From: Ectocarpus siliculosus
Lineage: Eukaryota; Sar; Phaeophyceae; Ectocarpales; Ectocarpaceae
Assembly (NCBI GenBank): GCA_000310025.1
Contig: FN649738.1
Location: forward strand, 1,404,742 to 1,468,741
Length of the DNA stretch: 64,000 nucleotides
Direction of reading: 5' to 3'
Shown piece after piece: positions 416 through 43,584 of the stretch; positions within the stretch are counted from its first letter, which is position 1, and each line of letters begins with the position of its first letter. The translations under genes and the position numbers were made by a program. The notes beneath the pieces were generated by a model. That model did not search any database and was not told the origin of the DNA. It saw only the letters and a program-made list of their open reading frames with translations.

Positions 416-2726
416 TCAGAGGCCTTCGTATACCTGTACGGCAGCAGTCGTTTTCCTTGCATCGAGTTTGTTCGGCTCGTAGTCCGCCACTTCTTCGACA
501 AACCAGTCCATGACGGCTTCCTCGGTCGCAGAGTCTGGCGAGGCGCCAATATCTTGGCTCCATCCGCACTCGCCTGAAATGCAAACAACCCACCGTACCC
601 CGTCCGAGCACAAGATCTCACCGTTGGCTTGGAACACTGATCCCACATAAAAACTCGTTGCAGTTGCGTGAGGCCGTGGCAATGCCCTTGTAATTGGGCT
701 CACGGTGGGTTCGATGGGTGTCGCGACAACACCCCAAGAAATATCTCACTCGCTGCCGCAAATACGCCAAACACATGGATGAATGGAAGGCCAGACACCT
801 AATGGGGGCTGGGTGCACCGAAAATCAAGGTGGTGGAATAACAGCTTTCTGGATCGTCTACTATCTTCAACAGGGCAAGGTGGAGCGGATGGTTTCGTGA
901 ACACCGTACTCATCGCACGAAGTTAGGCCAAACAGCAAGGCGTTAAGGGTGAACGTGTTTCTACCAATACCATCGCGGTTCCATCAATACAATTGCCCAC
1001 AAAATAATTGGGGCGTACACACACTATGTTGCAGGACGGCGGGCTCAGCCACCCAACCAACCAGCCTCAGTAAAGCGGCGTTGGCAGCCAAGGGACAAGC
1101 CGATTGCGCTGTGGATCCTCACCCTCAACACCACCCATGCCTGCTGTGGTGTGCGTGCCACGTTCTTCAGCCGTGTCAATCGTGGGGAGGGTGCCGTCCA
1201 CATACCCATCCGAGAGTTGCAACGCCAACGCCCTCGCCAGCAAACAACAGTCAGTCGAGTCGGGCGCCATGTCGCAGATCTGCCAGAGTATCCGAGACGT
1301 CGTGGGTGCGTCAGTGTCGACCATAGCACAAGCCAAGGGGCGGGCGCATCTTACGTAGAACCACCGAGGCACCGTACTCGTGAAACAAGCTCACCTTCGA
1401 CACTCGCCGAGTTTGCAGATAGCGGTCTCCCGCCTTCAAGGCTGCGGCAGCCAAGCCCGCAAGCCCACTGACCACAGGCACCGCGCTCGACAGAAACTCC
1501 AAGGTCTTCCCTGCCTGCAAGAGGAAATGGAACAACGACATCCGATTGACACTCATGCAAAGTAACAGGGCGAGTATTGCGACACAGATACGAAACACTA
1601 CAAGCCCAAATGCAGCAACTTGCGGAGGCCTAAGCGGCGGCAGCACTCACCGTACCCATGCGACCGGTCTTGCTTGTGCAAACCAAGCTACTGGAGACGA
1701 CGCTGGCTGCGAGGTAGGCGTTACACAGACCAGTTCGGATTGCCGTGTAGTATGCCTTGGGACCCGGGGGCAACGCCAGCTCCCGCCGTTGTATGTCTTC
1801 ATTTGTCACGTGTCTCGACTGCGCACCAGGACAATACATCGCAGTTTGCAGTAACGTTGGGCCAAAACATCGTTAGGGAAACAGGAGGAAGGCGACCCAT
1901 GTGCGTGTGGGAAGGGCCACCGGCACAAGGACACCTGCAAAATGGAAACTCTTCCAGGTTAGTTCAAAAGGTGTGCCATATGAAAAGTCGGCTAAAATGC
2001 GTCCGCCAGGCCCTTACCCGTTCTCGGTGTGGGCCGAGGGATCCCTAGACTGCAGTACAGCGCTCACCACCATGTCGCCTAGATCTTCGGCCATTGCCAC
2101 CAGCCTGTTCAGCTCCCCGAGCGTACCCGTCCCGTTAAGCCCCGTGCCGGGAGAAGAGCGATTGATGCCCAGCGCTTCAACAAGCTGTCCAACCTGCTCC
2201 AGGCTTGCTTGACTCCCTCCACATAGCGTGCTCAACGACGAAAAAGAAGAAATCTGAGCCTGAGTAATGTGGTCCATATCTGCCTCCCGTGATGAACCAG
2301 ATATGGGTTCAGTGGTAGCTCCATCTGGCTTCCCGGGCTTGTCGCCCTGTGTCGAGGAACTGGTGCGTACGGCGGGGTTTTCCGCTTTTGTGTCTTCGCG
2401 TACAGCTGCCTGCTCCTGCTGCCGCAGTCTTGCCCTCCACGAATCAAGACTCTCGTCTTTCGCCGGCCCTCCTGAGTCGCACGAACACCAGGCAAGAGTG
2501 AAACGATATGCGTGATGCCCTCATGAGCACACTCCACTCGTCACGACGCTGGACGAGTCATTCAATAATTCTCCACAAGAAGAGCCCGATACATACATTT
2601 CTATCAAATCAATGTTGATACAAAAGTCGTTTCTCCGCTTTACTGTATTTTCATTGATTTTCTTTTGCGCGACTTTCCCGGGCGTATCCTTGCCAGCACT
2701 ATCATACATTCGCGCTTTGCGGTTGC

Positions 2727-2764
<38 letters not shown>

Positions 2765-5700
2765 CCTGATCGAGTGTCTGCAGCAAACTCGTGGACAACA
2801 GATTGTTGGTTCGCATTCATGGTGCTCTGCCTGCAGCAAAGAAAGCGACTTTGAGACAACATTCTGAAACATTGCATCATCGTTATGTCTTTCCTGGGAC
2901 GCCACCTGTTGCACACTATTAGCCCACCAAATTTTGTCTACTTTGCAACCATCGTCTCATGAAACAGCGCATCGGCCATCATTGATAGGCAGCTTAATAC
3001 ATCCACACAAGTAGTGCGAGGTGTATGTTTCGTGGGTAGATTTACATAGGCCAGACCCTCTCCCTGCACAGGTGAGTCGTGTGTACGGGTGAAAGCTCGA
3101 GGTTGGGACAGGATGCCGGTGAGGAGTTCAAACGTCAATCAAAAGTTCAATGGTTCGGATCTTGCGCTCAAATCCATCTCCGTGGATGCTGTCCCGCCTT
3201 CACGGTCGTGTAATGGCCGGTGTTGGGCACCTTTGTTTAAAGTCAAAAGGTTGTACGGCCTCCCCTTGCTTTGTGGTTCATTTGGAGTTGCGTGCAATGT
3301 CCTCTCTTGAAAGAGAAGCGCGGCCTAAGCATTCTCACTCGTCGTTTCACCCCTATAATAGTGCAAGCTTTGTGACGGATTTCCGGACTTTCCCCGGAAC
3401 GCAGCCGCACAAGGAACATCGTACCCATACAATCACATGCTTTCGTGGGAGTGAAATGTGGCAATTGATTTTCTTGCTGCCACAGAGATACGGCTCCACA
3501 AAATCTTGAAAAATGCATGGCCTTTTCGGTGTCCAAGAGGCAATGAATGCTCATCTACGGTTCTGCGTCTACTCTCCCTCACCGGTCAGGCTGTTGCTGG
3601 CGATCTCAAGCGTCTTCAAGTTGCGCAGAGCTCCAAACTCGTGAGGGATGGAACCTGGACAAACATGCATCGCATGCTATTTAAGGCTCGCCATCGTCCC
3701 GACGGGCGTTGCGGGTAACATACGAATGACGGCGCCGGCTGTACGACAGCGGTCCGTCTACGGTGTTCAACCAACACGAGGTTTTATCACTGCCAGAGCA
3801 CTTTCGAGGATGTGAATTGCACGACGAGCACCGCCGGGTCAGACATGTCCTAGCATACGACGGTCTTAATGCACTTGTAAACCGCTCCCATTAAATGCCA
3901 TCATCAAGTCACCAAATCCTAGGGCTGCGACCGGAGGCTGCGAGATTCCGCACGGTCCTTCACGTGTTTCCGCGAGGACCCATTTCGTATTCCTTGTCTC
4001 TATGATTTACCGCTGGCTATGCTCAAGACAAGGTTGGAAACGGAATAGCGATTTATCAGTTCTAGTTCCATGTTCGCATTTTGTTTACGGTTCAAAACAC
4101 CTCCCTGAACCGAATGATTGACCTACTGCAAAGTGTGCGAAGTATAGCAATTGGTTCTTGCTCTTCACACATGATATGGCGTCAATTTACTCCCTGGGAA
4201 AAATGACGGCATTTCCGGTGTCCACTCAGCTATGCAATGCATGTCCAATGTCCGCGATACTGTATTGTATTTTAGACCCGGTTCTCCGTCGACTTCCCCT
4301 CAACGGTCAGGCAACATGTTTGGGACGGACGAAGCGGCGTATTGGGGGTACCAGTGTTCCATCTAAACAAGTTCCCTGGAAATTCAGCCCCCAAAGGAAA
4401 ATGCGTAACGTTCACCTTCTTAAGCTCGCCAGGGCTCCAGTGACCTCTTGGACAAACTTAGAAACACACAAAAAAAAAAAAAACAACAGGGGCAGCACGC
4501 CAAAACGAACCTCTTGCTCTTGATTTAACGGACATAACCTTAGCCGTGCGGCAATGAATCGACCAATACAGAGACAGGGGGGCGGCAAAAGCCACCCACC
4601 CGAGCTATGTATTTGGTTTTCACAAGAATGGATTGGCAATGGTTGGGCACTGTGACGTCGTCATCCCCTCGTGACAGTCCTCGGAACCGCCACAAAGAGA
4701 GACAAAACCCGTCGCATTCTTCCTCTTTCCTCGGACATTCAACCGGCGGTCGGTTCAGCGTATTGAGTACCACATTATGGCACAACGGAAGGGCGAAGGC
4801 AGTAGCCACTTACTGAGCTGTGCGATCGTGTGCACATCGCGTTTCCTGCAGGTTGAGGCTGTGAGGAAGATAAGGTTTCGTCGACGATGTATCGCACTGC
4901 TTTCAATTCGAACGGAAATCACACTGCTTGACGACCGCGGTGATTTCGATTTTGAGTGTTTCGGTGGTAGCTTTGGAGAAAAAGGGCGGAGTACCTTGAA
5001 AAGCCACAGCCAGATACAAACAGCATACTAAATCAAACTTATCATGAAAGGTTGTGAGATAAAACAATCCATCATCTATTGCAGCTCGATGAGAGCTCCA
5101 AGCGCCTCGGGGATGGGTCCTGCCCGAGACAAAAGCACAATGAGTCACATGTCGTGATGAAATTTCAAATGCAACGCAAGACACCATGTGTACTTTACGG
5201 AGATGCTCCACAAGCGACTCCAGAAACCGAGTAACACCAGCTATGTGTCAACGCCGTTTGCTTCCCTCAGAATTCAGCTTGCTTCGGAGCGCGACCAACA
5301 CAATCAGCATATCGCACTGACACGTAGGTCAAGCATCCACATCTCTCCAACATCCCCCGTGATGCTAAACGTTCTCGGTTCCAACCATTCTACCGGATCT
5401 TGTTGCGGGCACCAATGCCTCCCTATCCTGACGAGAGATGGCCCATCTTTCCACGGGCATCAGCTGCGGTTTTCGGAGACGAATCCGGGGGGGAAGATGC
5501 AGAGAGCTAGGGAATAAGAGTCTCGCTAGAGGTATGCCCTCGGGTGTTACTGCTAGACACAACGACTCGAGGCTGCGGGGTCGGTATCGTCGAACGTAAT
5601 GGTTGGAAACACATGGCACAAGCTGATGTCCATCCGTTAGGAGCTTCCTGTGGCCTCGAGTTCCAGTGTCTAGTCTCCGATGATAGGCGAGAGCAAAGTG

Positions 5701-8700
5701 AAATAGAAATAGCCATTCCTTCGAGGTATAAATCAGTAACTTGAGTTGCGTCTACAATGCACCGTAAGGGTGTCGACGTCACACGACAAAGTGTGACGAG
5801 ACCCCAGCACACCAACAACAAGGCCACCGACGTGCTGTCGCCGCCTTGACTGAGCAACCTCAGCTAAGACTGCGTCACCTATATCCATCCAGCTCAGCGA
5901 CTGAGGAGGAGGCAGCGAGGGTGTCGCCAAATAACGGACAAGGGGTACAACAGCGGCATACAGCGCCGAGGTCCTTTCGGTACAGACGGGTCCCAGTACA
6001 GCACGACCGCCAGATACAAACGTTAGCATGAAGGCTGTCGGATCCTAAAGCAAACCATCATCTAGGGCGTCGTAGGCGGCCTTGTTCTAACATCGCGCTG
6101 AGTTGCATTCTGTCTTACCTGAGAGATGGTTGTCGTTGAGCCAAAGCCTTTCCAATTTGCCGAGACCTCCAAGCACTCCTGGAATGGACCCTGCACAAAA
6201 CAAAAGAGCCACACGATGAACTCGTTAGCTCGCCGCTGGTGGGCGCGGCGTGGTGAAAGGTATGATGCGGCCGGCTGGTTAAACATCGGTCCGACCTACC
6301 GCGTGTGCGAGACACGAAAGCAAGCAATCTTCCCACGCCATCCCATCTCACCAGTGAGCTTGTTGTCGGACATGTCAAGGTTCTTCAGCTCGCGAAGAGC
6401 TCCGAGCGCCTCGGGGATGGGTCCTGCACGAGACAAAAGCACAATGAGTTACATGTCGTGATGCAATTTCCAATGCAGCGCAAGACGCCATGTGTCAACC
6501 ACGCCCGGTGTGTACTGTACGGAGATGCTCCACAAGCGACTCCAGAAACCGAGTAACACCAGCAACGCGGTAACGCCGTTTGCTTCCCTCACAATTCAGC
6601 TTGCTTCGGATCGCGACCAACACAATCAGCATATCGCACTGACACGTAGGTCAAGCATCCATATCTCTCCAACATCCCCCGTGATGCTAAGCGTTCTCGG
6701 TTCCAACTATTCTACCGGATCTTGTTGGGGGCACCAATGCCTCCCTACCCTGACGAGAGATGACCCGTCTTTCCACGGGCATCAGCTACGGTTTTCGGAG
6801 ACGAATCCGGGGGGGAAGATGCGGACAGCAAGGGAATAAGACTCCCGCTAGAGGTATGCCCTCCGGTGTTTCTACTAGATACAACCACTCGAGGCTGCGG
6901 GGTCGGTATCGTCGAACGCAATGGTTGGAAACACATGGCACAAGGTGATGCCAATCCGTTAGGTACTTCCTGTGGCCTCGAGTTCCAGTGTCTACTGTAG
7001 CCTCCGATGATAGGTGAGAGCAAAGTGAAATGGAAATAGCCATTCCTTCGAGGTATAATGCATAGAGCATCCTGAGTTGCGCCTACAATGCACCGTGAGG
7101 GTGTCGACGTCACACGACGAGCTGTGACGACACCCCAGCACACCAACAACAAGGCCACCGATGTGCTGTCGCCGCCTTGACTGAGCAAAGTGTCACGCAT
7201 AGTCGCCACTTAGCTATGGGCCAACAGACATACCGCGTATATACAGCCTTGCCGAGTCCCACCCGTGTATGGGGAAACATCGCTTCAAGTGAAGCAAAAA
7301 TGATAATGCTACAGCAAAACCTACACTACCGTAGGACACCTGTGAAACGATCCACGGTATGGTATCGTGCAAAACAAGGCGCCAAATACCGAACAACGGA
7401 TACATGAACGGATACAAGCTGCGGGTTGCTTGAAACGTTTTCTTTGCGACAGCAACCAAACCAATACGCAAACAACCAACACAAGACACCATCATCAATG
7501 TCGTGCGATTCTACTGCACACGACCCTCTACGGCGTCGTGAGCGGGATTGCTCCCCCTTCGCAACGTGTTCCATTCTCCCTCACCGGTCAGCTGGTTGCC
7601 GTCGAGTCGAAGAATGTGCACCTTTCCGAGGCCTCCAAGCTCTCTGGGAATGGAACCTGCACGGGCGTACAGCAGGTGGCCCACTGGTTATGCTGCTGCT
7701 GATGTACTGAGCATGATGAGGAGACATGTGTGGTGCCGCCGGCTTGTTCAACATCGGACCCGCCGACGTCATGGGCGAGACACGAAATGATGTCCCCACG
7801 CGATCCTCCCTCACCGATGAACTTGGCGACGTTCACCACATAAGTTTCTTCAGCTTGCCATGTAAGTCTCACGTGTGATCGACTTGCATGCGTTCTCCAA
7901 GATGAGAATGTCGCCACCGTTTCGTGGGTTCGGGGGACGCTATGCAAGCCAACCAGACCACCTATTGGTACCCGCTGATGGCAACCAAAAGCTCTTGCCG
8001 GTGAGCTCGCTTGCGTCCGGACTACCGCGACCAACGCATCCACCCGACACTCACGTCGAAAGTCGCAAGCTCTCAAACTGCTACATCATGCGAATCGTTT
8101 CAAATCCTGACCACCCGCGGTATCGTTGCAGGGCACCGAGGCCTCCCTACTCAGACGAAATTGGATCTGTATCTCCAAGAGCATCGTTTCCGGGTTTAGG
8201 CCACAACTCCAGGGATACAGATGCATGATGCAAGGGGGAATGTCCCCCGCCCCAGGCATGCGTTTGGTGCCTCTACGATGTACAACGGTTCGAAGGTGTG
8301 GGATTGTTTTCGATCAGAGAGCAAGGATATCAAGTACGGGCAAACACAAGTCATGCCATCGCCAGCCTCCTGTGGCCTCGCTTTCCGATGGATAGTCGAT
8401 AGGTTCCGAGCAAGAGCGAAACAATAATGAAACGACCACCTGTTAGAGGTGCATTGCATGGCACGTCCTGGTTGCAAGCATGATGTATCGTAAAGCTGCT
8501 GTGGACGGCAAAACATAGCTGTGACAACACACCAACACATGAAACGAGGAGCCACTGATAGGCTGCCTTCATATTTGGAGGAAGTGCCACGTGTAGTCCC
8601 CACGTCGCTACGGGCCATCTGGCATCCCGCGAATTTTCAATCACGTCGCGTGTCGTGCAGGCGACACCACGAGTCTCATTTCATACACCAACTACAAACC

Positions 8701-11700
8701 TGAGCTGAGACTGCGTCACCTATATCAATCTAGCTAAGCGACTGAGGAGGAGGCAGGAGAGTGTCACCAAATAACGGACAAGGGGTTCAACAGCGGCATA
8801 CAGCGCCGAGGTCCTTACGGTACAGACGGATCCCAGTACAGCACGACCGCCAGATACAAACGTTAGCATGAAGGCTGTAGGATCCGAAAGCAAACCATCA
8901 TCTAGGGCGTTGTAGGCGGCCTTGTTCTAACATCGCGCTGAGTTGCATTCTGTCTTACCTGAGAGCTGGTTGCCGTAGAGACAAAGCTCTTCCAACTTGC
9001 CGAGACCTCCAAGCTTTCTCGGGATGGACCCTGCACAAAACAAAAGAGCCACACCGTCAACTCGTTAGGAAGCCGCTGGTCGGCGCGGCGTAGTGAAAAG
9101 GTATGAAGCGGCCGACTGGCCGAACATCGGTCCGACCTACCGCGTGGGCGAGACACGAAAGGCATCAATCTTCCCACGCCATCCCATCTCACCAGTGAGC
9201 TTGTTGGCGGACATGGAAAGGTTCTTCAGCTCGCTGAGACCTCCAAGCGCCTCGGGGATAGTCCCTGCTCGAGACAAAAGCACAATGAGTCACACGTCGT
9301 GATGCAATGTCAAATGCAACGCAAGACACGATGTGTCAACCAAGCCCGGTTTGTGCTGTACGGAGATTCTCCACAAGCGACTCCAGAAACCCAGTAACAC
9401 CAGCTATGTGTCAACGCCGTTTGCTTCCCTCAGAATTCAGCTTGCTTCGGATCGCGACCAACACGACCAGCATATCGCACTGACACGAAGGTCAAGCATC
9501 CACATCTCTCCAACATCCCCCGTGATGCTAAGCGTTCTCGGTTCCAACTATTCTACCGGATTTGTTGCGGGCACCAATGCCTCCCTACCCCCACGAGAAA
9601 CGGCCCATCTTTCCACGGGCATCAGCTACGGATTTCGGAGACGAATCCAGGGGGGAAGATGCAGAGAGCTAGGTAATGAGACTCTCGCTAGAGGTATGCC
9701 CTCGGGTGTTACTGCTAGACACAACGACTCGAGGCTGCTGGGTCGGTATCGTCGAACGCAATGGTTGGAAACACATGGTGCAAGCTGATGTCAATCCGTT
9801 AGGAGCTTTCTGTGGCCTCGAGTTCCAGTGTCTAGTCTCCGATGATAGGCGAGAGCCAAGTGAAATAGAAATAGCCATCCCTTCGAGGTATAATGCATAG
9901 GGCATCCTGAGTTGCGCCTACAATGCACCGTAAGGGTGTCGACGCCACGCGACAAGCTGTGACGACACCCTAGCACACCAACAAAAAGGCCACAGCCGTG
10001 CTGTCGCCGCCTTGACTGGACAAAGTGTCACCCATAGTCGCCACTTCGCTATGGGCCAACTGACATACCGCGTATATAGAGCCTTGCAGCGTCCACGCCC
10101 GTGTATGGGGAAACATCGCTTCAAGTGAAGCAAATATGATAATGCTACAGCAAAACCTCCACTACTGTAGCACACCTATGAAAGTGCCCACTGTATAGTA
10201 TCGTGCAAAACGTGTTGCCAAATACCGAACAACGTGTAAATGAACGGATCTAAGCTGCGAGTTGCTTGAAACGTTGTCTTTGCGACCTAACCCCAACCAA
10301 TACACAAACAACCAACATCAACACCTCATCATCATTGACGTCATGCGATTCTACTGCACACTACCCTCTACGGCATCGTGAGCGGGATTGTTCCCGATTC
10401 GCAACGTGTTCCATTCTCCCTCACCGGTCAGCTGATTGCCGTCGAGTCGAAGAATGTGCACCTTTCCGAGGCCTCCAAGCTCTCCGGGGATGGAACCTGC
10501 ACGGGTGTACAGCAGGTGGCCCACTGGTTATGCTGCTGCTGATGTACTGAGCATGATGAGGAAACATGGGTGATGCTGCCGGCTTGTTCAACATCGGACC
10601 CGCCGACGTCATGGGCGAGACACGAAATGATGTCCCCACGCCATTCTCCCTCACCGATGAACTTGGCGACGTTCACCACACAAGTTTCTTCAGCTTGCGA
10701 TGTGAGTCTCACGTGTGATCGACTTGCATGCGTTCTCCAAGATGAGAAGATGAGAATGTCGCCACCGTTTCGTGGGTTCGGGGGACGCTATGCAAGCCAA
10801 CCAGACCACCTATTGGTACCCTCTAATGGCAACCAAAAGCTCTTGCCGGTGAGCTCGCTTGCGTCCGGACTACCGCGACCAACGCATCGACCTGACACTC
10901 ACGTCGAAAGTCGCAACCTCTCAAACTGCTACATCATGCGAATCGTTTCAAATCCTGACCAACCGCGGTATTGTTGCAGGGCACCGAGGCCTCCCTACTC
11001 AGACGAAATTGGATCTGTATCTCCAAGAGCATCGTTTCCGGGTGTAGGCCACAACTCCAGGGATACAGATCCATGATGCAAGGGGAAATGTCCCCCGCCC
11101 CAGGCATGCGTTTGGTGCCTCCACGATCTACAACGGTTGGAAGGTGTGAGATTGTTATCGATCAAAAAGCAAGCATATCAAGTATGGGCAAACAGAAGTC
11201 ACGCAATTTCCAGCCTCCTGTGGCCTCGCTTTCCGATGGATAGTCGATAGGTTCCGAGCAAGAGCGAAACAACAATGAAACGACCCCCTCTTAGAGGTGC
11301 ATTGCATGGCACGTCCTGGTTGCAAGCATAGTGTATCGTAAAGCTGCTGTGGACGGCAAAACATAGCTGTGACAACACACCAACACATGAAACGAGGAGC
11401 CACTGATAGGCTGCCTTCATATTTGGAGGAAGTGCCACGTGTAGTCCCCACGTCGCTACGGGCCATCTGGCATCCCGCGAATTTTCAATCACGTCGCGTG
11501 TCGTGCAGGCGACACCACGAGTCTCATTTCATACACCAACTACAAACCTGAGCTGAGACTGCGTCACCTACCGTATAAGACACAAGATAACACACCCCCT
11601 GGACCGATTTTCAAAGCTCCATTACTCCACGACGAAGAGGATGCATGAATGAAACAATACGTTTTCGAACAGCTCTCGACGAGACGGTTCCAACGCCGCC

Positions 11701-29332: not shown

Positions 29333-31634
29333 TCAGAGGCCTTCGTATACCTGTACGGCAGCAGTCGTTTTCCTTGCATCGACGTTATTCGGCTCGTAGT
29401 CCGCCACTTCTTCGACAAACCAGTCCATGACGGCTTCCTCGGTCGCAGAGTCTGGCGAGGCGCCAATATCTTGGCTCCATCCGCACCCACCTGAAATGTA
29501 ATTAACCCACCGTACCCCGTCCGAGCACAAGATCTCACCGTTGGTTTGGAATACTCATCCCACATAAAACCCGCTGCAGGTGCGTGCGGCCGTGGCAATG
29601 CCCTTGTAATCGGGTTCACGGTGGGTTTGATGGGTGTCGCGACAAACCCCCAAGAACAACCTCACTCGCTGCCACACATTCGCCAAACACATGGATAAAT
29701 GGAAGGCCAAACACCTAATGGGGGCTGGGTGCACCGAGAATCAAGGTGGTGGAATCATAGCGTTCTGGATCGTCTACTATCTTCAACAGGGCAAGGTGGA
29801 GCGGATGGTTTCGTGAACACCGTACCCATCGCACGAAGTTAAGCCAAACACCATGGCGCTAAGGGTGAACGTGTTTCAATCAACACTATCGCGGTTCCAT
29901 CAACACAATTGCCCACAAACAATTAGGGCGTACACACACTGTGTTGCAGGACGGCGGGCTCAGCCATCCAACAAACCCGCCTCAGTAAAGCGGCGTTGGC
30001 TGCCAAGGGACAAGCCGATTGCAGTGTGGATCCTCACCCTCAACACCACCCATGCCTGCTGTGGCGTGCGAGCCACGTTCTTCAGCCGTGTCAGTCGTGG
30101 GGAGGGTGCCATCCACATACCCATCCGAGAGTTGCAACGCCAACGTCCTCGCCAGCAAACAACAGTCAGTCGAGTCGGGCGCGATGTCGCAGATCTGCCA
30201 GAGTATCCGAAACGTCGTGGGTGCGTTAGTGTCGACCATAGCACAAGCCAAGGGGTGGGCGCATCTCACGTAGAACCGCCGAGGCACCGTTCACGTGAAA
30301 CAAGCTCACCTTCGACACTCGCCGAGTTTGCAGATAGCGGTCTCCCGCCTTCAAGGCTGCGGCAGCCAAGCCCGCAAGCCCACTGACCACAGGCACCGCG
30401 CTCGACAGAAACTCCAAGGTCTTTCCTGCCTGCAAGAGGAAATAGAACAACGATATCCGATTGACACTCATGCAAAGTAACAGGGCGAGTAGTGCGACAC
30501 AGATATGAAACAATACAAGCCCAAATGCAGCAACATGCGGAGGCCTACGCGGCGGCAGCACTCACCGTACCCATGCGACCGGTCTTGCTTGTGCAAACCA
30601 AGCTACTGCAGACGACGCTGGCTGCGAGGTAGGCGTTACATAGACCAGTTCGGATGGCCGTGTAGTATGCCTTGGGACCCGGGGGCAACGCCAGCTCCCG
30701 CCGTTGTATGTCTTCATTCATCACGTGTCTCGACTGCGCACCAGACAATACATCGCAGTTTGCAGTAACGTTGGGCCAAAACATCGTTAGGGAAACAGGA
30801 GGAATGCGATCCATGTGCGTGTGGGAAGGGCCACCTGCACAAGGACACCTGCAATTGGGAAGCCTTCCAGGTTAGTACAAGAGGTGTGCCATATAAAAAG
30901 TCGGCTAAAATACGTCCGCCAGGCCCTTACCCGTTCTTGGTGTGGGCCGAGGGATCCCTAGACTACAGTGCAACGCTCACCACCATGTCGCCTAGATCTT
31001 CGGCCATTGCCACTAGCCTGTTCAGCTCCCCGAGCGTACCCGTCTCGCTGAGTCCCGTGCCGGGAGAAAAGCGATTGATGTCCAGTGCTTCAACAAGCTG
31101 TCTAACCTGCTCCAGGCGTTTATGACTCCCTCCACACAGCGTGCTCAACGCCGAAAAAGAAGAAATCTGAGCCTGAGTCATGTGGTCCATATCTGCCTCC
31201 CGTGACGAACCAGATATGGGTTCAGTGGTAGCTCTATCTGTCTTCCCAGGCTTGTCGCCCTGTGTCGAGGAACTGGTGCGTGCGGCGGGGTTTTCCGCTT
31301 TTGTGTCTTCGCGTACAGCTGCCTGCTCCTGCTGCCGCAGTCTTGCCCTCCACGAATCAAGACTCTCGCCCCTCGTTGGCCCTCCTGAGTTGCACGAACA
31401 CCAGGCAAGAGTGAAACGATATGCGTGATGCCCTCATGAGCACACTCCACTCGTCACGACGCTGGACGAGTCATTCAATACTTCTCCACAAGAAGAGCCC
31501 AACTATACATTTCTATCAAATCAATGTCGATACAATATTCGTTTCCCCACTTTACTGTATTGGCATTGATTTGCTTTTGCACGACTTTCCTGGGCGTATC
31601 CTTGCCAGCACTATCATACGTTCGCGCTTTGCGG

Positions 31635-31676: not shown

Positions 31677-34600
31677 TGATCGAGTGTCTGCACCAAACTC
31701 GTGGACAACAGGTTATTGCTTTGCATTCATGGTACTCTGCCTGCAGCAAAGAAAGCGACTTTGAGACAACATTCTGAAACATTGCATCATCGTTATGGCT
31801 TTCCTGGGACGCCACCGGTCGCACACTATTAGCCCACCAAATTTTGTCTACTTTGCAACCATCGTCTCATGAAACAACGCATCGGCCATCACCGATAGAC
31901 AACTTGATACATCCACACCAGTGCGAGCTGTATGTTTCGTGGGTAAATGTACATAGTCCAGACCCTCTCCCTGCACAGGTGAGTCCTGGTGTAGGTGAAG
32001 ACTCGAGGTTGGGACAGGATGCCGGTGAGTGAGTTCAAACGCCAATCAAAAGTTCATTGGTTCGGATCTTGCGCTCAAGTCCATCTCCGTGGATGCTGTC
32101 CCGCCTTCACGGTCGTTCAATGGCCGGTGTTGGGCACATTTGTTAAAAGTAAAAAAGTTGTACGGCCTCCCCTTGCTTTGTGGTTCATTTGGAGTTGCGT
32201 ACAATGTCCTCTCTTGGAAGAGAAGCGCGGCCTAAGCATTCTCGCTCGTCGTTTCACCACTACAATAAAACAAGCTTCGTGACGGCTTTCCGGGTTTTCC
32301 CCGGAACGCAGCCACACAAGGAACATCGCACCCACAAATCACATGCTTCCGTGGGAGTGAAATGTGGCAATTGATTTTCTTGCTGCGACAGGGATACGGC
32401 TCCACAACATCTTGAAAAATGCATGGCCTTTTCGGTATCCAAGAGGCAATGAATGCTCAACTACGGTTCTGCGTCTACTCTCCCTCACCGGTCAGGTAGT
32501 TGCTGTCGACATGAAGCGTCTTCACGTTGCGCAGAGCTCCAAACTCGTGAGGGATGGAACCTGGACAAATATGCATCGCATGATATTTAAGGCTCGTCAT
32601 CGTCCCGCCGGACGTTGCGGGTAACATACGAATGACGGCGCCGGCTGTACGACAGCGGTCCGTCTACGGCGTTCAACCAACACAAGGTTTTATCACTGCC
32701 AGAGCACTTTCGAGGATGTGAACTGCACGACGAGCACCGCCGGGTCAGACATGTCCTAGCATACGACGGTCTTAATGCACTTGTCAACGGCTCCCATTAA
32801 ATGCCATCATCAAGTCACCAATCCTTGGGCTGCGACCGGAGGCTGCGAGATTCCGCACGGTCCTTCACGTGTTTCCGCGAGGACCCATTTCGTGTTCCTT
32901 GTCTCTATGTTTTGCCGCTGGCTATGCTCAACACAAGGCAAGGTTGGAAACGGAGTAGCGATTTGTCAGTTCTAATTCCATGTTCGCATTTTGTTTACAG
33001 CCCCCTGAACCGAATGTTTGACCTTCTGCGAAGTGTGTAAAGTATAGCAATTGGTGCTTGCTCTTCACACAGCATACGGCGTCACGTTCACACCCTGCGA
33101 AAAATCATGGCATTTTCGGTGTCCACTCAGCTATGCAATGCATGCTCCGCTCCAATGTCCGCGATACTGTACTGTATTTTAGACCCGGTTCTCCGTCGAC
33201 TTTCCCTCAACAGTCAGGCAACATGTTTGCGATGGACAATGCGGCGTATTGGGGGTACCGTTCCATCTAAACAAGTTCCCTGGAAAACATTCCCCCCAAA
33301 GGAAAATACGTAACGTTCACCTTCTTCAGCTCGCCAGGGCTCCAGTGACCTCTTGGACAAACTTAGAAACACACCAAAAGAAGGACCAACAGGGGCAGCA
33401 CGCCAAAACGAACCTCTTGCTCTTGATTTTACGGACATCACCGTAGCCGTGCGGCAATGAATTGGGCGATACAGAGACAGGGCGGCGGCAAAAGCCACCC
33501 ACCCGACCTATGTATTTGGTTTTCACAGGGATGGATTGGCAATGGTTGGGCACTGTGACATCGTCATCCCCTCGTGACAGTCCTCGGAACCGCCACAAAG
33601 AGAGATAAATCCGTCGCATTCTTCCTCTTTCCTCGGACATTCAACCGGCGGTCGGCTCAGCGTATTGAGTACCACATTATTGGCACAACGGAAGGGCGAA
33701 GGCAGTAGCCACTACCAGAGCTGTGTGATCGTGTGCACATCGCGTTTCCCGCAGGTTGAGGCTGTGAGGAAGATAAGGTTTCGTCGACGATGTATCGCAC
33801 TGCTTTCAATTCGAACGGAAATCACACCGCTTGACGACCGCGGTTATTTCGATTTTGAGTGTTTCGGTGGTAGCTTTGGAGGAAAAGGGCGGAGTAGCTT
33901 GAAAAGCCACCGCCAGATACAAACAGTATACTAATCAATTTATCATAAGAAGATTGTGAGATAAAACAACCCATCATCTATTGCATCGTAGGCTGGGCCG
34001 GCCTTGGTACGAGTGAAGCTGATACTGATTTCACGTCACCTATAGACGGTTGCCATGGAGATGAACATGTGCCAACGTGGCTAGAGCTCCACGTGTTTCG
34101 GGGTTGCGACATATACAATCACATGGTAAATGCTACACTCTTTGCCTCGTCACAGTCAGTCACGGCGTGATGAGAGATGAACGATGCCGCCGCCGTAATG
34201 AACGTCGGTCGTGCCTCCCCGCGTGGGCGAGACTTTAAATGAACCGATCTTAACACAACATCCTCTCTCACCAGTGAGCTTGTTGCCGTTGATGACAAGG
34301 ATATCCAGCTTGCTGAGAGCTCCAAGCGCCTTGGGAATGGGTCCTGCATAAGACAAATACAAAATGTGTCACACCCATGATCAAATTGAAACTGTTGCCC
34401 ATGACATGAGTGCCGCCCACGCCTTGTGCGTGCGGAAATACCTCTACAAGCTACAGCAGTCTTACCAGAAGCCGAGCAACACCGATTAATAGTCAACATC
34501 TTCTACCAGTGGGCTGTTGTTGATTGCGGCCAACGCGTTCAACAGATCGGCCTCACACTCAGGCCAAGCACCCCAAGCTCCCCAACTTGAGAATATTTGT

Positions 34601-37600
34601 CATCGTGTGCTTGCTGGCTACCGGCCCCGTTACAGCGTGGTGCGTCCCCGGTGAGGAGGGACAGGGCCTTCCGCTTCAATGACATCGGTTCTGGGTTTGG
34701 ACGACAACTCCAGGGACACAGATGCAGCGCGCAGGAGCAAAGGCAACCGCCTGAGCCATGCCTTGTTTGGCCTCCACGATGCACAAAGATTGGAAGCTCG
34801 GAGGCCATCAATCTTCTGAAAAACATGCTTGCAAGTACATGGAACAAACAGAGGTCAAGCCATTTCCTGCAGAGTGCTTAGTCGATAGGTTCCGAGGGAA
34901 AGCGAAAAGGAGATGAAAAATACATATTATCAAGCTGTGATGCATGGCGCGTCCTGAGCTGCGATGACGACGCGCCGCGGGGTTGTGACCGTCTTACAGC
35001 AACCTGCTTGAACCCCTACGAAGACCGGCCGCTGTGCTGCCGCGGCGAACATTGTAGGAAGAGCCTCGCACAGTCGCCACAATACTGTGCGTGCGGTTAG
35101 ATTGAAGCCGTTTTAAACATTGCACATTTTGTCATCAATTTTATGTTTTCAAATTTGGAAACTTTGCGCAGCGAGTTCGAAGGCAAAATCTTTGGAAGCT
35201 TTCCGAACATTTGGAAGCTACCGTCCCAAAGTTTTGGGGCCCTCATCAATTTCAAAATTTTTCGATGACTTCCAAATTTTAGCTTTTGGAATTTGGAAAT
35301 ATGGAAAAAAACGCTATGATTAAAACGGCCCTTACGCAGTGTTGTAGACTCCAACCCCGTGTGGAGGGCAGTGCCGCGAGGGCTAAAACGACCAGAACCG
35401 TAGCCCAACCTCCACCGATGTACATAGATCAAAACGCGGCCACGATATCGCAAGACGCGTTTTGTATGTTTTCGTCCTATTTATGATGGCGACACTTCCC
35501 CCACTTTTCGTGTTGACGTGCACTACATGTATGTAGAGAACTGCACTTTTCAGTGTATGATTTGTACAGCTACAACCATCCAGGGTCACACAGGAGGGGG
35601 TAAGCACCGGGGCTTATTGCTTTGTTATTTTTTCTGTTTTCGTGCCCCACCTTAATGCTGCTAAGCGTGCTGAATTTGTATTGTTATCGCGAGAAGGGTT
35701 AGCCGTCCCTTTCCCTCCTCAACGGTGCTAGTGTCGAAGCTTGGTACTCACGACGATTTCAGCCTTTCCTTTCTCTTTCACCCGCAAAGTTGTATATACA
35801 TTCAACCCATGGGGACTCGAACTCACGACGACTTTGCCACTACCGGTTTCGAGGTTACCACTAGACGACCGGGACGACCAGTGGCATAGTACCAAACAGT
35901 GGGTCTACAGGCGGGATACATCCCCGGCACCTTCGGGACGAGCCCTGATACAGTACAACCGCCAGACCCAAAGCAGACACGTTCGTCTGCATGAGGGTTG
36001 CGCTATACTGTGCGAGCCAACCAGACAACTTACTGGAACCCGAGCAAGGCCGACTGGCAGTCAAACCCTGTTGCCGGTGAGCTCGCTTGGGTCCGGACTA
36101 CCGCAACCAATATATCGACCCGATATTCAGGTCATTAGTCTCAAGCTCTCAAACGTTAATATCCTGCCAATGGTCTCACTTTTCTGACTACCAGTATTGT
36201 TGCAGAACACCAAGGCCTGCCTACTTCCAAGGGCATCGGTTCCGGGTTTTGGGCAACAACTCCACAAGTAAAAAAGCAGGATACAAGGGCGAACGTCCCC
36301 CGCCCGAACCATGCCTGCGCCTCTACGATCACCAAGTCCACACGGCTCAAATGTGTGAGAGCGTTTATCATTCAAATAGAAATGCTTTCAAGTATAGACA
36401 AACAGAGGCAACGATTTTGCCCAAGACGCCGCCATATGCATCATTCAATCTGAGGGACTTGAATAGGCAGGCAGAGTGTCGTCAAATACAACAGCGTCAT
36501 ACACGGCCGAGGTCCTTCGGGACGGAGGGGTTCCAGTAAAGAAACACCGCCAGATGCAAACAACTGATAGCAAAACGGTATCATGAAGTTTGAGCGGGTC
36601 TACAGCAAACCATCACCTGGGGCGTCGTACGCGGCATTGTTCGCACATCACGCTGAGTTTACTCTTCCTCACCAGAAAGTGCGTTGCCGCTGAGCCCAAG
36701 CCGTTCCAACTTGCCGAGACCTCCAAGTACTCCGGGGATGGACCCTGCACACACCAAAAAGAGCCAAATGGTGATCTCGTTAGGGAGCCGCTGATGGGCG
36801 AGGTGTAGTGAAACATATATGGTGCGGCGGGCTGGTTAACACAACGGTCGGACCTACCGCGTGGGCGAGACACGAAAGGAATTAATCTTCCCACACCATC
36901 CTATCTCACCAGTGAGCTTGTTGCGGTCCACGGACAATCTCGTCAGTTCGCTGAGAGCTCCAAGCGCCTCGGGGATGGGTCCTGCACGAGATAGAAGCAC
37001 AATGAGTCACATTGCCTGGTCAAATTGAAAATGTAACGCAGGACATGATGTGTCAACCACGCCCGGTGTGTACTGTACGGAGGTGCTCTACAACCTAGCC
37101 AAACACCAGAAGCCAACACCAGCTATGAGACAACGCCTACTATTGTTTCCCTCAGAATTCAGGATGATTCGGATCGCGACCAACACGATAAGCATATCGC
37201 ACTGACACGTAGCTCAAGCATCCACACCTCTCAAACATCCCCCATGATGCTAAATGTTCCAGGTTCCAACTTTTCTACCGGATTTGTTGCGGGCACCAAT
37301 GCCTCCCTACCCTGACGAGAGACGACCCACCTTTCCACGGGCATCAGATACGGTTTTCGGAGACGAATCCGGAGGGGAAGATGCAGAGAGCAAGGGAATA
37401 AGACTCTCGCTAGAGGTATGCCGGTCGAGTGCTACTACTAGATACAACGATCCGAAGCTGCGGGTTCGGTATCGTCGAACACAATGGTTGGAAATACATG
37501 GCACAGGCTGATGTCAACCCGTTAGAAGCTTCCTGTGGCCTCGAGTTCCAGTGTCTAGTCTCCGATGATAGGTGAGAGCGAGGTGAAATAGAAATAGCCA

Positions 37601-40600
37601 TTCTTTTGAGGAACAAAGCAGCAACTTGAGTTGCGTCTACAATGCACCGTAAGGGTGTCGACGTCACACGACAAGCTGTGACGACACACCAGCACACCAA
37701 CAACAAGGCCGCCGACGTGCTATGGCCGCCTTGACTGAGCAAAGTGTCGCGCATAGTCGCCACTTCGCTATGGGCCAACTGATATACCGCGTATATACAG
37801 TCTTGCCGAGTCCACGCCCGTGTATGGGGAAACATCGCTTCAGTGAAGCCAATATGATAATGCTACAGCAAAACCTCCACTACGGCTGTAGGACTCCTAT
37901 CAAAGTGGCCACGGTATGGTATCGTGCAAAACGTGTTGCCAAATACCGAACAACGTGTACATGAACGGATATAAGCTGCGAGTTGCTTGAAACGTTGTAT
38001 TTGCGACAGCGACCAAACTAATACACAAATAACGAACACAAGACATCATCATCAATGTCATGCGATTCTACTGCACACTACCCTCCACGGCATCGTGAGC
38101 GGAATTGTTCCCGCTTCGCAACGTGTTCCATTCTCCCTCACCGGTCAGCTGATTGCCGTCCAGTCGAAGAATTTGGACCTTTCTGAGGCCTCCAAGCTCT
38201 CCGGGGATGGAACCTGCACAAGGCAAAAGAGCCAAACGGTGATCTCGTTAGTTCGTCGCTGGTGGGCGCGGCGTAGTGAAAAGGTATGATGCGGCCGGCT
38301 TGCTCAACATCGGTCCGACCTACCACGTAGGCAAGACACGAAAGGCATCAATCTTCGCACGCCATCTTATCTCACCAGTGAGCTTGTTGTCGCCAATGTC
38401 AAGGTTCCTCACCTCGGTGAGAGCTCCAAGCGCCTGGGGAATACTCCCTGCTCGAGACAAAAGCACAACGAGTCACATGTCGTGATGCAATTTCAAATGC
38501 AACGCAAGACACGATGTGTCAACCACGCCCGGTGTGTACTGTACGGAGATGCTCCACAAGCGACTCCGGAAACCGAGTAACACCAGCTATGCGTTAACGC
38601 CGTTTGCTTCCCTCAGAATTCAGCTTGGTTCGGATCGCGACCAACACGATTAGCATATCGCACTGACACGTAGGTCAAGCATCCACATCTCTCAAGCATC
38701 CCCAATGACAAACGTTCTCGGTTCCAACTATTCTACGGGATTTGTTGCGGGCACCAATGCCTCCCTACCCTGACGAGAGATGACCCATCTTTTCACGGGC
38801 ATCAGATACAGGTTTCGGAGACGAATCCAGGGGGGAAGATGCAGAGAGTAAGGGAATAAGACTCCCGCTAGAGGTATGCCCTCGCGTGTTTCTATTAGAC
38901 ACAACGACTCGAGGCTGCGGGATCGGTATCGTCGAACGCAATGGTTGGAAATACATGGCACAAGCTTATGTCAATCCGTTAGGAGCTTCCTGTGGCCTCG
39001 AGTTCCAGTGTCTAGTCTCCGATGATAGGCGAGAGCCAAGTGAAATAGAAATAGCCATTCCTTTGAGGAACAAAGCAGTTACTTAAGTTGCGTCTACAAT
39101 GCACCGTAAGGATGTCGACGTCACACGACAAGCTGTGACGACACCCCAGCACACCAACAAGGCCACCGACGTGCTGTCGCCGCCTTGACTGAGCAAATTG
39201 TCACGCATACTCGCCACTTTGCTATGGGCCAACTGATATACCGGGTATATACAGTCTTGCCGAGCCCACGCCCGTGTATGTGGAAACATTGCTTCAAGTG
39301 AAGCAAACATGATAATGCTACAGCAAAACCTCCGCTACCTATGAAAGTGGCCACGGTATGGTATCGTGCAAAACGTGTTGCCAAATTCCGGACAAGGGGT
39401 ACATGAACGGATACAAGCTGCGAGCTGCTTGAAACATTGTCTTTGCGACAGCAACCAAACCATTACACAAACAACCAACATCAAGACCCCATCATCATCG
39501 ATGTCGTGCGATTCTACTGCACACTACACTTCACGGCATCGTGAGCGGGATTGTTCCCGCTTCGCAACGTGTTCCATTCTCCCTCACCGGTCAGCTGGTT
39601 GCCGTCGAGTCGAAGAGTTTGCATGTTTCCGAGGCCTCCAAGCTCTCCGGGGATGGAACCTGCACGGGCGTACAGCAGGTGGCCCCCTGGTTATGCTGCT
39701 GCTGATGTACTGAGCATGACGAGGAAACATGTGTGATGCCGCCGACTTGTTCAACATCGGACCCGCCGACGTCGTGGGCGAGACACGAAATGATGTCCCC
39801 ACGCCATCCTCCCTCACCGATGAACTTGGCGACGTTCACCACACAAGTTTCTTCAGCTTGCGATGTACGTCTCACGTGTGATCGACTTGCATGCGTTCTC
39901 CAAGATGAGAAGATTAATATGTCGCCACCGTTTCGTGGGTTCGGGGGACGCTATGCAAGCCAACCAGACCACCTATTGGTACCCTCTGATGGCAACCAAA
40001 AGCTCTTGCCGGTGAGCTCGCTTGCGTCCGGACTACCGCGACCAACGCATCGACTTGACACTCACGTCGAAAGTCGCAAGCTCTCAAACTGCTACATCAT
40101 GCGAATCGTTTCAAATCCGGACCACCCGCGGTATTGTCGCAGGGCACCGAGGCCTCTCTACTCAGACGAAATTGGATCTGTATCTCCAAGAGCATCGTTT
40201 CCGGGTTTAGGCCACAACTCCAGGGATACAGGTGCATGATGCAAGGAAAATGCCCCCCGCCCGAGGCATGCGTTTGGTGCCTCTACGATGTACAACGGTT
40301 CGAAGGTGTGAGATTGTTATCGTTCAGAGAGCAAGGGTTTGAAGTACGGGCAAACAGAAGTCACGCCATTGCCAGCCTCCTGTGGCCTCGCTTTCCGATG
40401 GATAGTCGATAGGTTCCGAGGAAGAGCGAAACAACAATGAAACGACCCCCTCTTAGAGGTGCATTGCATGGCACGTCCTGGTTGCAAGCATAATGTATCG
40501 TAAAGCTGCTGTGGACGGCAGAATAAAGCTGTGACAACACCCCAACACATCAAACGAGGAGCCACTGATAGGCTGCCTTCATATTTGGAGGAAGTGCCAC

Positions 40601-43584
40601 GTGTACTCCCCACGTCGCTATTGGCCATCTGGCATTCCGCGAATTTACAATCACGTCGCGTGTCGTGCAGGCGACACCACGAGTCTCATTCAATAGACCA
40701 ACTGCAAACCTCAGCGAAGACTGCGTCACCTATATCAATCCAGATCAGCGACTGAGGAAGAGGCAGCGAGGGTGTCGCCAAATAACGGACAAGGGGTTCA
40801 ACAGCGGCATACAGCGCCGAGGCCCTTTCGGTACAGACGGGTCCCAGTACAGCACGACCGCCAGATACAAACGTTAGTAGGAAGGCTGTAGGATCCTAAA
40901 GCAAACCATCAAGGGCATCGTAGGCGGCCTTGTTCTAACATCGCGCTGAGTTGCATTCTGTCTTGCCTGAGAGCTGGTTGCCGTGGAGCCCAAGGTGTTT
41001 CAACTTGCCGAGACCTCCAAGCACTCCGGGGATGGACCCTGCACAAAACGAAAGAGCCAAACGGTGAACTCGTTAGTTCGCCGCTGGTGGGCTCGGCGTG
41101 GTGAAACATGTATGATGCGGCCGGCTAGTTCAACATCGGTCCGACCTTCCGCGTGGGCGAGACACGAAAGGTATCAATCTTCGCACGCCATCCTATCTCA
41201 CCAGTGAGGTTGTTGTCGTTCATGGCAAGCGTCTTCAGCTCGCTGAGAGCTCCAAGCACCTCGGGGATGGGTCCTGCTCGAGACCAAAGCACAATGAGTC
41301 ACATGTCGTGATGCAATTGCAAATGCAACGCAAGACACCATGTGTCAACCACGCCCGGTGTGTACTGTACGGAGATGCTCCACAAGCGACTTCAGAAACC
41401 GAGTAACACCAGCTATGCGTTAACGCCGTTTGCTTCGGATCGCGACCAACACGATCAGCATATCGCACTGACACGTAGGTCAAGCGTCCACATCTCTCAA
41501 ACATCCCCCGTGATGCTAAGCGTTCTCGGTTCGACTGTTGTACCGGATTTGTTGCGGGCACCAATGCCTGCCTACCCCGACGAGAGATGACCCATCCTTA
41601 GACGGGCATCAGCTACGGATTTCGGAGACGAATCCGGGAGGGAAGATGCAGAGAGCAAGGGAATAAGACTCTCGCTAGAGGTACGCCCTCGCGTGCTACT
41701 ACTAGATACAACGACTCGAAGCTGCGGGTTCGGTATCGTCGAAAGCAATGGTTGGAAACACATCGCACAAGCGGATATCAATCCGTTAGGAACTTCCTGT
41801 GGCCTCGAGTTCCAGTACCCAGTCGAGAGGTTTCGATGATGGCGAGAGCGAAGTGAAATAGCCATTCCTTTGAGGTGTAAAGCATGGAGCATCCGCAGTT
41901 GCGTCTACAACGCACCGGGAGACTGTTGACGTCACACGGCGAGCTGTCATGGGACCCCAGCACCACCAAGAACAAGACCACGGATGTGCTGTCGCCGCCA
42001 TGAGTGACGAAAGTGTCACGCACAGTCGCCAAACAGCCATGGGTCAACTGACATACCGCGAATATACAGCCTTGCCGAGTCCAAGCCCCTGTGTGGGGAA
42101 ACATGGCTCAGAGTGCAGCAACCATGAAAAGCTACGACACGCCGAAGCCAAGACTTCGCCACATGCATCAATCCAGCTGAGTGACTTGAAGAGACAGGGA
42201 GAGTGTCGCCAAATAAGAAAAACAAGGGGTACAACGGCGGCATACAGCGCCGAGGTCCTTTCGGTACAGACGGGTCCCAGTACAGCACGACCGCCAGATA
42301 CAAACGTTAGCATGAAGGCTGTAGGATCCTAAAGCAAACCATCATCTAGGGCGTCGTAGGCGGCCTTGTGCTAACATCGCGCTGAGTTGCATTCTGTCTT
42401 GCCTGAGAGCTGGTTGCCGTGGAGAAAAAGCATTTCCAACTTGCCGAGAGCTCGAAGCACTCCTGGGATGGACCCTGCACAAAACAAAAGAGCCAAACGG
42501 TGAACTCGTTAGCTCGCCGCTGGTGGGCACGGCGTAGTGAAAAGGTATGATGCGGCCGGCTGGTTGAAAATCGGTCCGACCTTCCGCGTGGGCGAGACAC
42601 GAAAGGAATATTCGCACGCCATCCTATCTCACCAGTGAGCTTGTTGCGGGGCATCACAAGCGTCTTCAGCTCGCCGAGAGCTCCAAGCGCCTCGGGGATG
42701 GGTCCTGCTCGAGACAAAAGCACAATGAGTCATATGTCGTGATGCAATTTCAACTGCAACACTAAACACGATGTGTCAACCACGCCCGGTGTGCACTGTA
42801 CGAAGATGCTCCTCATCGTTTACCAGAAACCGAGTAACACGCTGTGAGCCAACGCCTTGTGTTTCCTCCAGAATTAAGGTTGGTTCGGATCGCGACCAGG
42901 ACAATCAGCATATCGCACTCACAGTTAGGTCAAGCATCCCGATTTCTGAAAACGTCTTTCGCGATGAAACCCACCGATCTTCTCACGGTCGTCCCACTGG
43001 ATAGTCTATGTTTCACGCCACAAATGCTTCCCCGCTCAGAAGAGATGAGGCCGTTTTCTTCAAGGGTATCGGTTCCGGTTCTAGGAGTAGAGATTAAGGG
43101 AGCTACGAAGCGGTGCCGTGAATAATGCCTTGTTTTAATTTTATTATCTCTTCGGAAATCATGAGGTTGGTTTCGTCCCGAAAGTAATGCTTGGAAGCTC
43201 ATGGACGCTCATGGCGTGCTATAGCTAAACACGGTAGCAAGGGGCGTCATTTCGCATCACTCAACATAGTGAGGATCATCCAACCACCACTCGATGCCGA
43301 AATCAATATGGTACAAAACGAGCAAATTCATAACGCGGACTAGACATTACAATACCGCGGAGGTTGTTGTCCGGCAGAATCAGCCCCACCACACGGCCCG
43401 CGTGGTTAACTTTGACCCCCTTCCAAGTAGCTAGCCCCGCGTCCGTGTTCCAGTTGCTGTTCGTCTTCCAGTTCGCTCCATCAGTCGAACGAAACAACGC
43501 AACCAGTGCGGCACGATCGATGGAAGACACCTGCTCCGAGGGGCTGCTTCGGAATGCACGACGGAAAAAAGGAACACGATACAT
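29333..43584 (-). CDS. LRR-B: 17-exon leucine-rich-repeat protein, 675 aa, tandem paralogue of LRR-A
   Basis: Same architecture as LRR-A with 11 LRRs. Exons in coding order: N-cap 43356-43584; LRRs 42633-42704, 42403-42474, 41202-41273, 40967-41038, 39588-39659, 38376-38447, 38142-38213, 36910-36981, 36673-36744, 34272-34343, 32489-32560; tail 30981-31384, 30566-30733, 30310-30429, 30038-30194, 29333-29490. The total of 2028 nt is divisible by three with no internal stop. The five tail exons have exactly the lengths of those in LRR-A (404, 168, 120, 157, 158 nt), so the tail is under length constraint while the LRR number is not. Two LRR exons (40967, 42403) are followed by GC rather than GT donors. 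The exon at 34272 is intact here but truncated in copy A. N-terminal residues 1-22 include part of an RRAFRSSPSEQVSS repeat, whose other unit lies upstream of the chosen ATG. No recognised effector domain follows the LRRs. Confidence 0.85.
31639..31674. repeat. (AG)n microsatellite in an LRR-B intron
   Basis: Uninterrupted AG run at the position equivalent to 2727-2764 in copy A. Confidence 0.95.
33321..33358 (-). pseudogene. fossil LRR exon (copy B)
   Basis: Counterpart of the remnant at 4416-4452, reading VQEVTGALAS on the minus strand. Confidence 0.55.
35108..35328. mobile_element. 221-bp AT-rich MITE-like insert
   Basis: The ends read CCGTTTTAAACAT and, reverse-complemented, CCGTTTTAATCAT. 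The interior is AT-rich with repeated tttggaa words, unlike the surrounding sequence. No clear target duplication. Copy A lacks it. Confidence 0.4.
35808..35879 (-). mobile_element. tRNA-derived SINE head
   Basis: 72 nt on the minus strand with an A-box-like GGTCGTCTAGTGGTAACC and a B-box GAGTTCGAGTCCC. The T stem and acceptor stem do not pair properly, so it is not a working tRNA. The element probably extends left to about 35.4 kb; its tail is not defined. Shares the gcgagaag.gtt motif (35,693) with the SINE at 20928. Confidence 0.5.
36609..42760 (-). repeat. LRR cassette array of copy B (rearranged units)
   Basis: Same unit material as in copy A, but shuffled. The unit-start sequence recurs near 36,601, 40,900 and 42,337. 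Type I/II pairs lie at 36673/36910, 40967/41202 and 42403/42633. In the middle, a type III exon (38142-38213) is joined directly to the flank of a type I exon and followed by a type II exon (38376-38447). Another type III exon (39588) and a fossil exon (39818) follow. Spacing between units is irregular (about 4.3 kb, then 1.4 kb), unlike the regular spacing in copy A. Confidence 0.75.
39818..39862 (-). pseudogene. fossil LRR exon, donor half (copy B)
   Basis: Same remnant as in the three copy A units, downstream of the type III exon at 39588. Confidence 0.55.

Follow-up and report, generated by a model that had tools for sequence, protein, structure and literature searches.

Brown-algal LRR-ROC-COR genes were reportedly the subject of earlier work by Zambounis et al. 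in 2012. According to the available part of Teng et al. 2024 (PMC11378527), the LRR exons of brown-algal ROCO genes are 72 bp long, with nucleotides 3-71 encoding 23 residues; they are alternatively spliced and carry selected sites at positions 14, 16, 18 and 19. COR was detected there in just 18 of 111 ROCO genes, and the mean ROCO protein length is given as 1241 residues. The same source describes 15 non-ROCO sequences from Saccharina japonica with shuffled 72-bp LRR exons, mostly composed of LRR motifs only, and suggests that LRR-only sequences form a reservoir from which exons can be exchanged. Exon-built repeat receptors are likewise proposed for the NB-ARC-TPR genes of brown algae (Teng et al. 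2023, as represented in parts of PMC11378527 and PMC12879055), and frame-preserving LRR exons are described for human NLRs in the available part of PMC6642158.

The two tandem genes described here, A and B, lie in a 64,000-nucleotide stretch of Ectocarpus siliculosus DNA (the window). As far as ROCO groups 1-2 are portrayed in the source available, the genes resemble them in 72-nt LRR exons, exon boundaries, the same four fast sites and tandem arrays, but ROC-COR was not found here and an uncharacterised tail stands in its place. With the Saccharina japonica set they share 72-nt LRR exons without ROC; in contrast to that set, by its description in the part of PMC11378527 available, they possess an N-cap and a multi-exon tail. 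NB-ARC-TPR genes, from what these sources state, carry TPR repeats and NB-ARC, neither of which was found here, whereas human NLRs, as the portion of PMC6642158 available has it, carry NLR domains and LRR exons such as that of NLRP3 (171 bp, two LRRs each), in contrast to 72 nt and one LRR. The N-cap itself is ordinary, since relatives of N-cap plus LRR are encoded at prokaryote loci (17 loci/69 pattern matches). The best prokaryotic relative, in a Chloroflexi MAG, likewise combines an N-cap with plant-type LRRs (47% over query residues 2-152, the segment that matches best), but is encoded in one uninterrupted frame.

Domain searches covered the gene A model, T3-T6 of gene B and 20 of the 47 minus-strand frames downstream of gene B, and found no ROC, COR, NB-ARC or kinase there. 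An uninterrupted P-loop is absent from the window's six frames except in four LRR frames read past their donors. TPR and NB-ARC are missing from the gene A model and the tail pieces, which sets the genes apart from the NB-ARC-TPR genes, and, unlike in LRR receptor kinases, no kinase was found in the gene A model, tail pieces and 20 of 47 frames, nor a clear membrane span by hydropathy; PDB matches to plant LRR kinases cover the N-cap and LRR part. DUF5612 exceeds its cut-off in the gene A LRR region (27.3 vs 25 bits); it was disregarded for its overlap with the LRRs. NCBIfam matches of the N-cap plus LRR piece to bacterial LRR proteins fall far under their cut-offs, and downstream-frame matches to ACBP4_C (0.0058), Alpha_E2_glycop (0.0032), FAM193_C (0.023) and weaker ones are attributed to chance. 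No relative of N-cap plus LRR was found in viral contigs by an exact-peptide-pattern scan, which detects close relatives only.

An earlier note on this DNA had proposed that the exon design of ROCO and NB-ARC-TPR candidate immune receptors recurs here in genes with neither GTPase nor NB-ARC, and that exon shuffling may thus extend to another receptor class. The likeness in design to ROCO genes is borne out by the boundaries (72 bp, nucleotides 3-71, the "phase 2" of the available part of PMC11378527 being the same cut). Neither a GTPase nor an NB-ARC domain was found in the sequences searched, though the window edge truncates gene A. With 72-bp LRR exons and no ROC detected in the gene A model or 20 of 47 frames, the locus corresponds to the non-ROCO class of Teng et al. 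2024; the extension beyond ROCO that the locus would represent is not new, as the 15 Saccharina japonica cases had put this main inference into print. The novelty that remains is an N-cap, a 72-nt LRR array and a conserved non-GTPase tail in two tandem paralogues, an architecture of which no description was found in the openly licensed literature searched, comprising the available parts of PMC11378527, PMC6642158, PMC12879055, PMC4421812, PMC8307928, PMC3879662 and PMC7929912.

The locus and its exon grammar

The whole design lies on the minus strand and contains 25 intact 72-nt LRR exons, of which gene A has 14 and gene B 11 (Table 1). Among 1041 AG-72 nt-GT/GC windows on both strands they take the top scores, 60.5-73.9, with the runner-up at 0.7; because the profile was built from the same 25 exons, the evidence is the gap and not the absolute score. 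With a nucleotide profile no known exon scores below 73; two decayed relics score 21 and 3, and nothing in one shuffled copy of the window exceeds -26. Exon length is invariant (25/25), while 150-nt intron-flank alignments have 145 gap columns in 1268, a count to which window ends and the recombinant exon 7 of gene B contribute unduly. Each exon has the layout 2+69+1 nt in phase 1-1, with G at the first and last position in all 25, and every junction reads glycine. Because G stands at both ends, the LRR exons could be joined in any order, including after the N-cap or before T1, with a glycine at the joint. GC donors occur in two of the 25, both in gene B. Independent assembly yields spliced models of 2250 nt (A) and 2028 nt (B), in frame and without internal stop.

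The 25 exons of the earlier note are thereby recovered by the scan, with the same length and phase in the same two genes, and its in-frame models are matched to the nucleotide. Its description of two complete genes holds for the open chains but less securely for completeness, since in each gene a plausible 93-nt exon lies past the stop, and A runs up against the end of the window.

The duplication that relates A and B covers the 5' flank (16786-18445 vs 42349-43991, 88.8%; 18439-19964 vs 44629-46141, 81.8%) as well as the part with the tail exons (5-5083 vs 28923-33985, 93.3%), and the first exons differ at 11 of 229 sites.

Table 1. Coordinates of the features of genes A and B in the window
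Gene	Feature	Position	Strand	Basis
A	LRR exon span	17146 to 3583	minus	
A	Exon 1, start codon and LRR N-cap	17805..18039	minus	gene model, A/B comparison
A	LRR exon 1 (alpha), 72 nt	17075..17146	minus	exon scan, model, typing
A	LRR exon 2 (beta)	16840..16911	minus	exon scan, model, typing
A	LRR exon 3 (alpha)	15111..15182	minus	exon scan, model, typing
A	LRR exon 4 (beta)	14875..14946	minus	exon scan, model, typing
A	LRR exon 5 (gamma)	13495..13566	minus	exon scan, model, typing
A	LRR exon 6 (alpha)	12263..12334	minus	exon scan, model, typing
A	LRR exon 7 (beta)	12026..12097	minus	exon scan, model, typing
A	LRR exon 8 (gamma)	10425..10496	minus	exon scan, model, typing
A	LRR exon 9 (alpha)	9193..9264	minus	exon scan, model, typing
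A	LRR exon 10 (beta)	8959..9030	minus	exon scan, model, typing
A	LRR exon 11 (gamma)	7585..7656	minus	exon scan, model, typing
A	LRR exon 12 (alpha)	6352..6423	minus	exon scan, model, typing
A	LRR exon 13 (beta)	6119..6190	minus	exon scan, model, typing
A	Relic alpha exon, 3' part is intron sequence common to gene B; stop, no donor	5048..5119	minus	
A	LRR exon 14 (delta)	3583..3654	minus	exon scan, model, typing
A	Tail exon T1, 404 nt	2068..2471	minus	model, A/B comparison
A	Tail exon T2, 168 nt	1651..1818	minus	model, A/B comparison
A	Tail exon T3, 120 nt, hydrophobic stretch	1395..1514	minus	model, A/B comparison, hydropathy
A	Tail exon T4, 157 nt	1123..1279	minus	model, A/B comparison
A	Tail exon T5	416..573; ends 434 if spliced on, else stop at 416	minus	model
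A	Possible exon T6, 93 nt, amphipathic	181..273	minus	model, helical moment, codon usage
B	LRR exon span	42704 to 32489	minus	
B	Exon 1, start codon and LRR N-cap	43356..43584	minus	model
B	LRR exon 1 (alpha)	42633..42704	minus	exon scan, model, typing
B	LRR exon 2 (beta), GC donor	42403..42474	minus	exon scan, model, typing
B	LRR exon 3 (alpha)	41202..41273	minus	exon scan, model, typing
B	LRR exon 4 (beta), GC donor	40967..41038	minus	exon scan, model, typing
B	LRR exon 5 (gamma)	39588..39659	minus	exon scan, model, typing
B	LRR exon 6 (alpha)	38376..38447	minus	exon scan, model, typing
B	LRR exon 7, gamma exon behind beta-type upstream intron (recombinant)	38142..38213	minus	typing, flank identity
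B	LRR exon 8 (alpha)	36910..36981	minus	exon scan, model, typing
B	LRR exon 9 (beta)	36673..36744	minus	exon scan, model, typing
B	LRR exon 10 (alpha, diverged flanks)	34272..34343	minus	exon scan, model, typing
B	Relic LRR exon, no acceptor, stop	34039..34110	minus	nucleotide profile
B	LRR exon 11 (delta)	32489..32560	minus	exon scan, model, typing
B	Tail exon T1, 404 nt	30981..31384	minus	model, A/B comparison
B	Tail exon T2, 168 nt	30566..30733	minus	model, A/B comparison
B	Tail exon T3, 120 nt	30310..30429	minus	model, A/B comparison
B	Tail exon T4, 157 nt	30038..30194	minus	model, A/B comparison
B	Tail exon T5	29333..29490; ends 29351 if spliced on, else stop at 29333	minus	model
B	Possible exon T6, 93 nt	29098..29190	minus	model, A/B comparison

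The rest of the window contains several further features. An inverted repeat of 312 bp (46587-46898 / 60569-60879, 95.8% alike) flanks 14.3 kb, possibly a large transposon. Inside it lie a transposase frame of the DDE_Tnp_4/HTH_Tnp_4 kind (58085-59080, minus, E 8.4e-29) and, at 59861-60460, another with a sub-threshold THAP match. Two stretches, 21284-24618 in the intergenic part after gene B and 60913-64000 at the right window end, are direct copies of a repeated element in two adjoining stretches, 93-94% alike. An open frame directly after gene B (28087-28488, minus) looks coiled-coil-like by eye, has a possible donor at its end and matches no family above cut-off. A plus-strand frame of 445 residues (52842-54179) matches XPG_N barely over the cut-off (22.7 vs 22 bits) and, weakly, XRN_N and XPG_I. 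Rfam returned no family at gathering score.

Module history and selection in the LRR array

By similarity of exon and flank, at a cut-off chosen by the analyst on which the grouping depends, the LRR exons sort into four types (alpha, beta, gamma and delta), in the order ab-abg-abg-abg-ab-d in gene A and ab-abg-a(g)-ab-a-d in gene B. Introns from alpha to the next exon inside modules measure 158-165 nt and those from gamma to alpha 1140-1161 nt, and repeat blocks reach 4.2 kb in length at 95% identity. This pattern of intron lengths and near-identical blocks indicates that the duplication unit is usually a two- or three-exon module and not a single exon. Exon 7 of gene B is gamma-like in the exon (90-94%) and downstream (92-95%), but its upstream 90 nt are 72-86% beta-like and 30-31% gamma-like, as would be expected from a crossover at or near the acceptor in which the beta-gamma intron was lost. 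In gene A a dead alpha exon runs into intron sequence common to gene B, and gene B contains a second relic. These traces place ends of recombination inside or next to LRR exons, at two junctions only, a number that does not demonstrate targeting there.

Diversification is concentrated at the concave face. The concave set of positions 15, 17, 19 and 20 was fixed beforehand from the published sites 14, 16, 18 and 19, as given in the available part of PMC11378527, with a presumed one-residue shift. Within types these positions have pN 0.443 vs pS 0.164, while positions outside the set have pN 0.100 and pS 0.182, with intron divergence at 0.047-0.225, and the set ranks first among 10,626 four-position sets. 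Bootstrapped pN over overall pS is 2.48 (1.93-3.29) for the concave positions and 0.55 (0.39-0.74) for the others, figures that are descriptive, given the dependence among exon pairs and the likelihood of gene conversion. Change is fast at position 14 too (pN 0.238, pS 0.021), and scaffold positions have pN 0.040 vs pS 0.218. The genes thus share with ROCO genes the N-terminal LRRs, the 72-bp exons with 23 residues from nucleotides 3-71 and diversification at the published sites, gamma exons excepted. By type, concave pN is 0.519 in alpha, 0.456 in beta, 0.310 in delta (one pair) and 0.047 in gamma, so that a module consists of two variable repeats and one nearly constant one. In all five gamma exons (Table 1) the concave residues are near constant, and the adjoining alpha and beta exons vary.

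The two relic exons, the two GC donors and a fast T1 would also suit a non-functional or donor locus, in which decaying LRR-exon genes serve at most as a reservoir for exon exchange, an idea voiced in the part of PMC11378527 available. This seems improbable, however, as length, frame and junction are kept in 25/25 main LRR exons, both chains are open throughout, the scaffold retains its low pN relative to pS, and T2-T6 are better kept than the introns.

The tail and the 3' ends

The tail comprises roughly 320 residues in each gene, with two moderately hydrophobic stretches and an amphipathic end. T3 has a hydropathy of 1.78, borderline for a membrane helix and reached by 4.8% of shuffles. A helix-bundle cell-death domain (HeLo/MLKL-like) for T3-T6 was considered, but the searches gave it no support. 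Pfam and NCBIfam gave nothing above cut-off for the tail, PDB sequences no convincing relative, and exact-peptide-pattern scans for close relatives none in viral contigs or prokaryote genomes. Two PDB matches (E 0.09 and 0.78) were taken as chance, as were Chorion_1 and TniQ (Pfam) and a RecA-intein model (NCBIfam) in tail pieces, all below curated cut-off.

Between A and B, T2-T6 show 18 differences in 678 sites and align without a gap, whereas the five neighbouring introns of the tail region show 147 differences in 2148 sites, with 10 gaps; the T5-T6 intron is the exception (2/160). T1 diverges like an intron (26/404) with its frame kept, and dN/dS over T1-T6 is 0.036/0.060; purifying selection on the tail is thus weak overall.

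The last exon of both genes ends at a possible donor, ACAG/GTATAC, and is followed in both by T6, which is open and has an acceptor and a donor. The genes may therefore run past their stops, and A beyond the end of the window. In the gene A tail the helical moment is strongest in T6; of 3000 open frames of 31 residues drawn at random from the window, 23 attain it, and codon usage, in gene A only, favours the T6 frame. The T5-T6 block (181-573 / 29098-29490) exceeds the other introns in A-B likeness, which may reflect gene conversion or unrecognised coding. One form of such coding would be a single exon from T5 to T6 in another frame, the 3' end having been misread: no stop interrupts frame 0 of 573-181 in either gene, and the supposed intron differs at just the two sites noted. 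This is very unlikely, since codon usage is no better than in the T5 frame (-0.02 vs -0.01), the peptide is Arg-, Ser- and Thr-rich, a different T4 donor is needed, and local gene conversion can explain the low divergence as well.

A continuing chain also bears on whether these are partial ROCO genes, with the tail as the spacer between LRR and GTPase and ROC-COR past the window edge in A and lost or displaced in B. The exon unit and selected sites are shared with ROCO, the chain may go on after T6, A-B similarity reaches the window edge, and the 1241-residue ROCO average in the available part of PMC11378527 leaves room for a spacer. Against it stand the searches of the gene A model and the 20 of 47 frames downstream of B, which contain no ROC or COR, though small exons can be missed there, and the lack of an uninterrupted P-loop in the window outside the four LRR frames. 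On balance this origin is possible but rather unlikely.

Proposed role of the genes

With some reserve, the explanation favoured for genes A and B is that they are tandem paralogues encoding cytosolic LRR recognition proteins, diversified by crossing-over between exon modules, in which the tail signals in place of ROC-COR. Each protein would begin with the LRR N-cap, continue as a solenoid of plant-type LRRs, 14 in A and 11 in B, each encoded by one 72-nt exon, and end in the tail. The concave face would bind variable, probably microbial, ligands, and germ-line unequal crossing-over between near-identical modules would create new binding faces. Exon skipping in RNA perhaps adds diversity, which is conceivable because the omission of any LRR exon would leave frame and junction intact. 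The tail, probably extending at least through T6, would relay the signal instead of a ROC-COR GTPase, as a presumptive output or adaptor domain whose cytosolic location is suggested by a start unlike a signal peptide. The constant gamma exons, the weak overall constraint on the tail and its want of a recognised domain, the borderline hydropathy of T3, the two GC donors and the two dead exons are evidence against this explanation.

A bolder reading, put forward only tentatively and considered unlikely, is a third brown-algal class of modular receptors, in which a sensor of shuffled 72-nt LRR exons is coupled to its own output domain (T2-T6), with recombination at exon boundaries, modules of variable alpha-beta and constant gamma repeats, and exon choice in RNA. 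The output domain would perhaps be a helix bundle with a membrane-active first helix.

Module duplications, a recombinant junction and dead exons occur together at one locus, where the question of germ-line, somatic or RNA-level diversification could be addressed directly. Should the tail prove to be a true output domain, exon-built receptors of these algae would not be bound to a single signalling partner, and the same LRR cassette design would serve several receptor classes.
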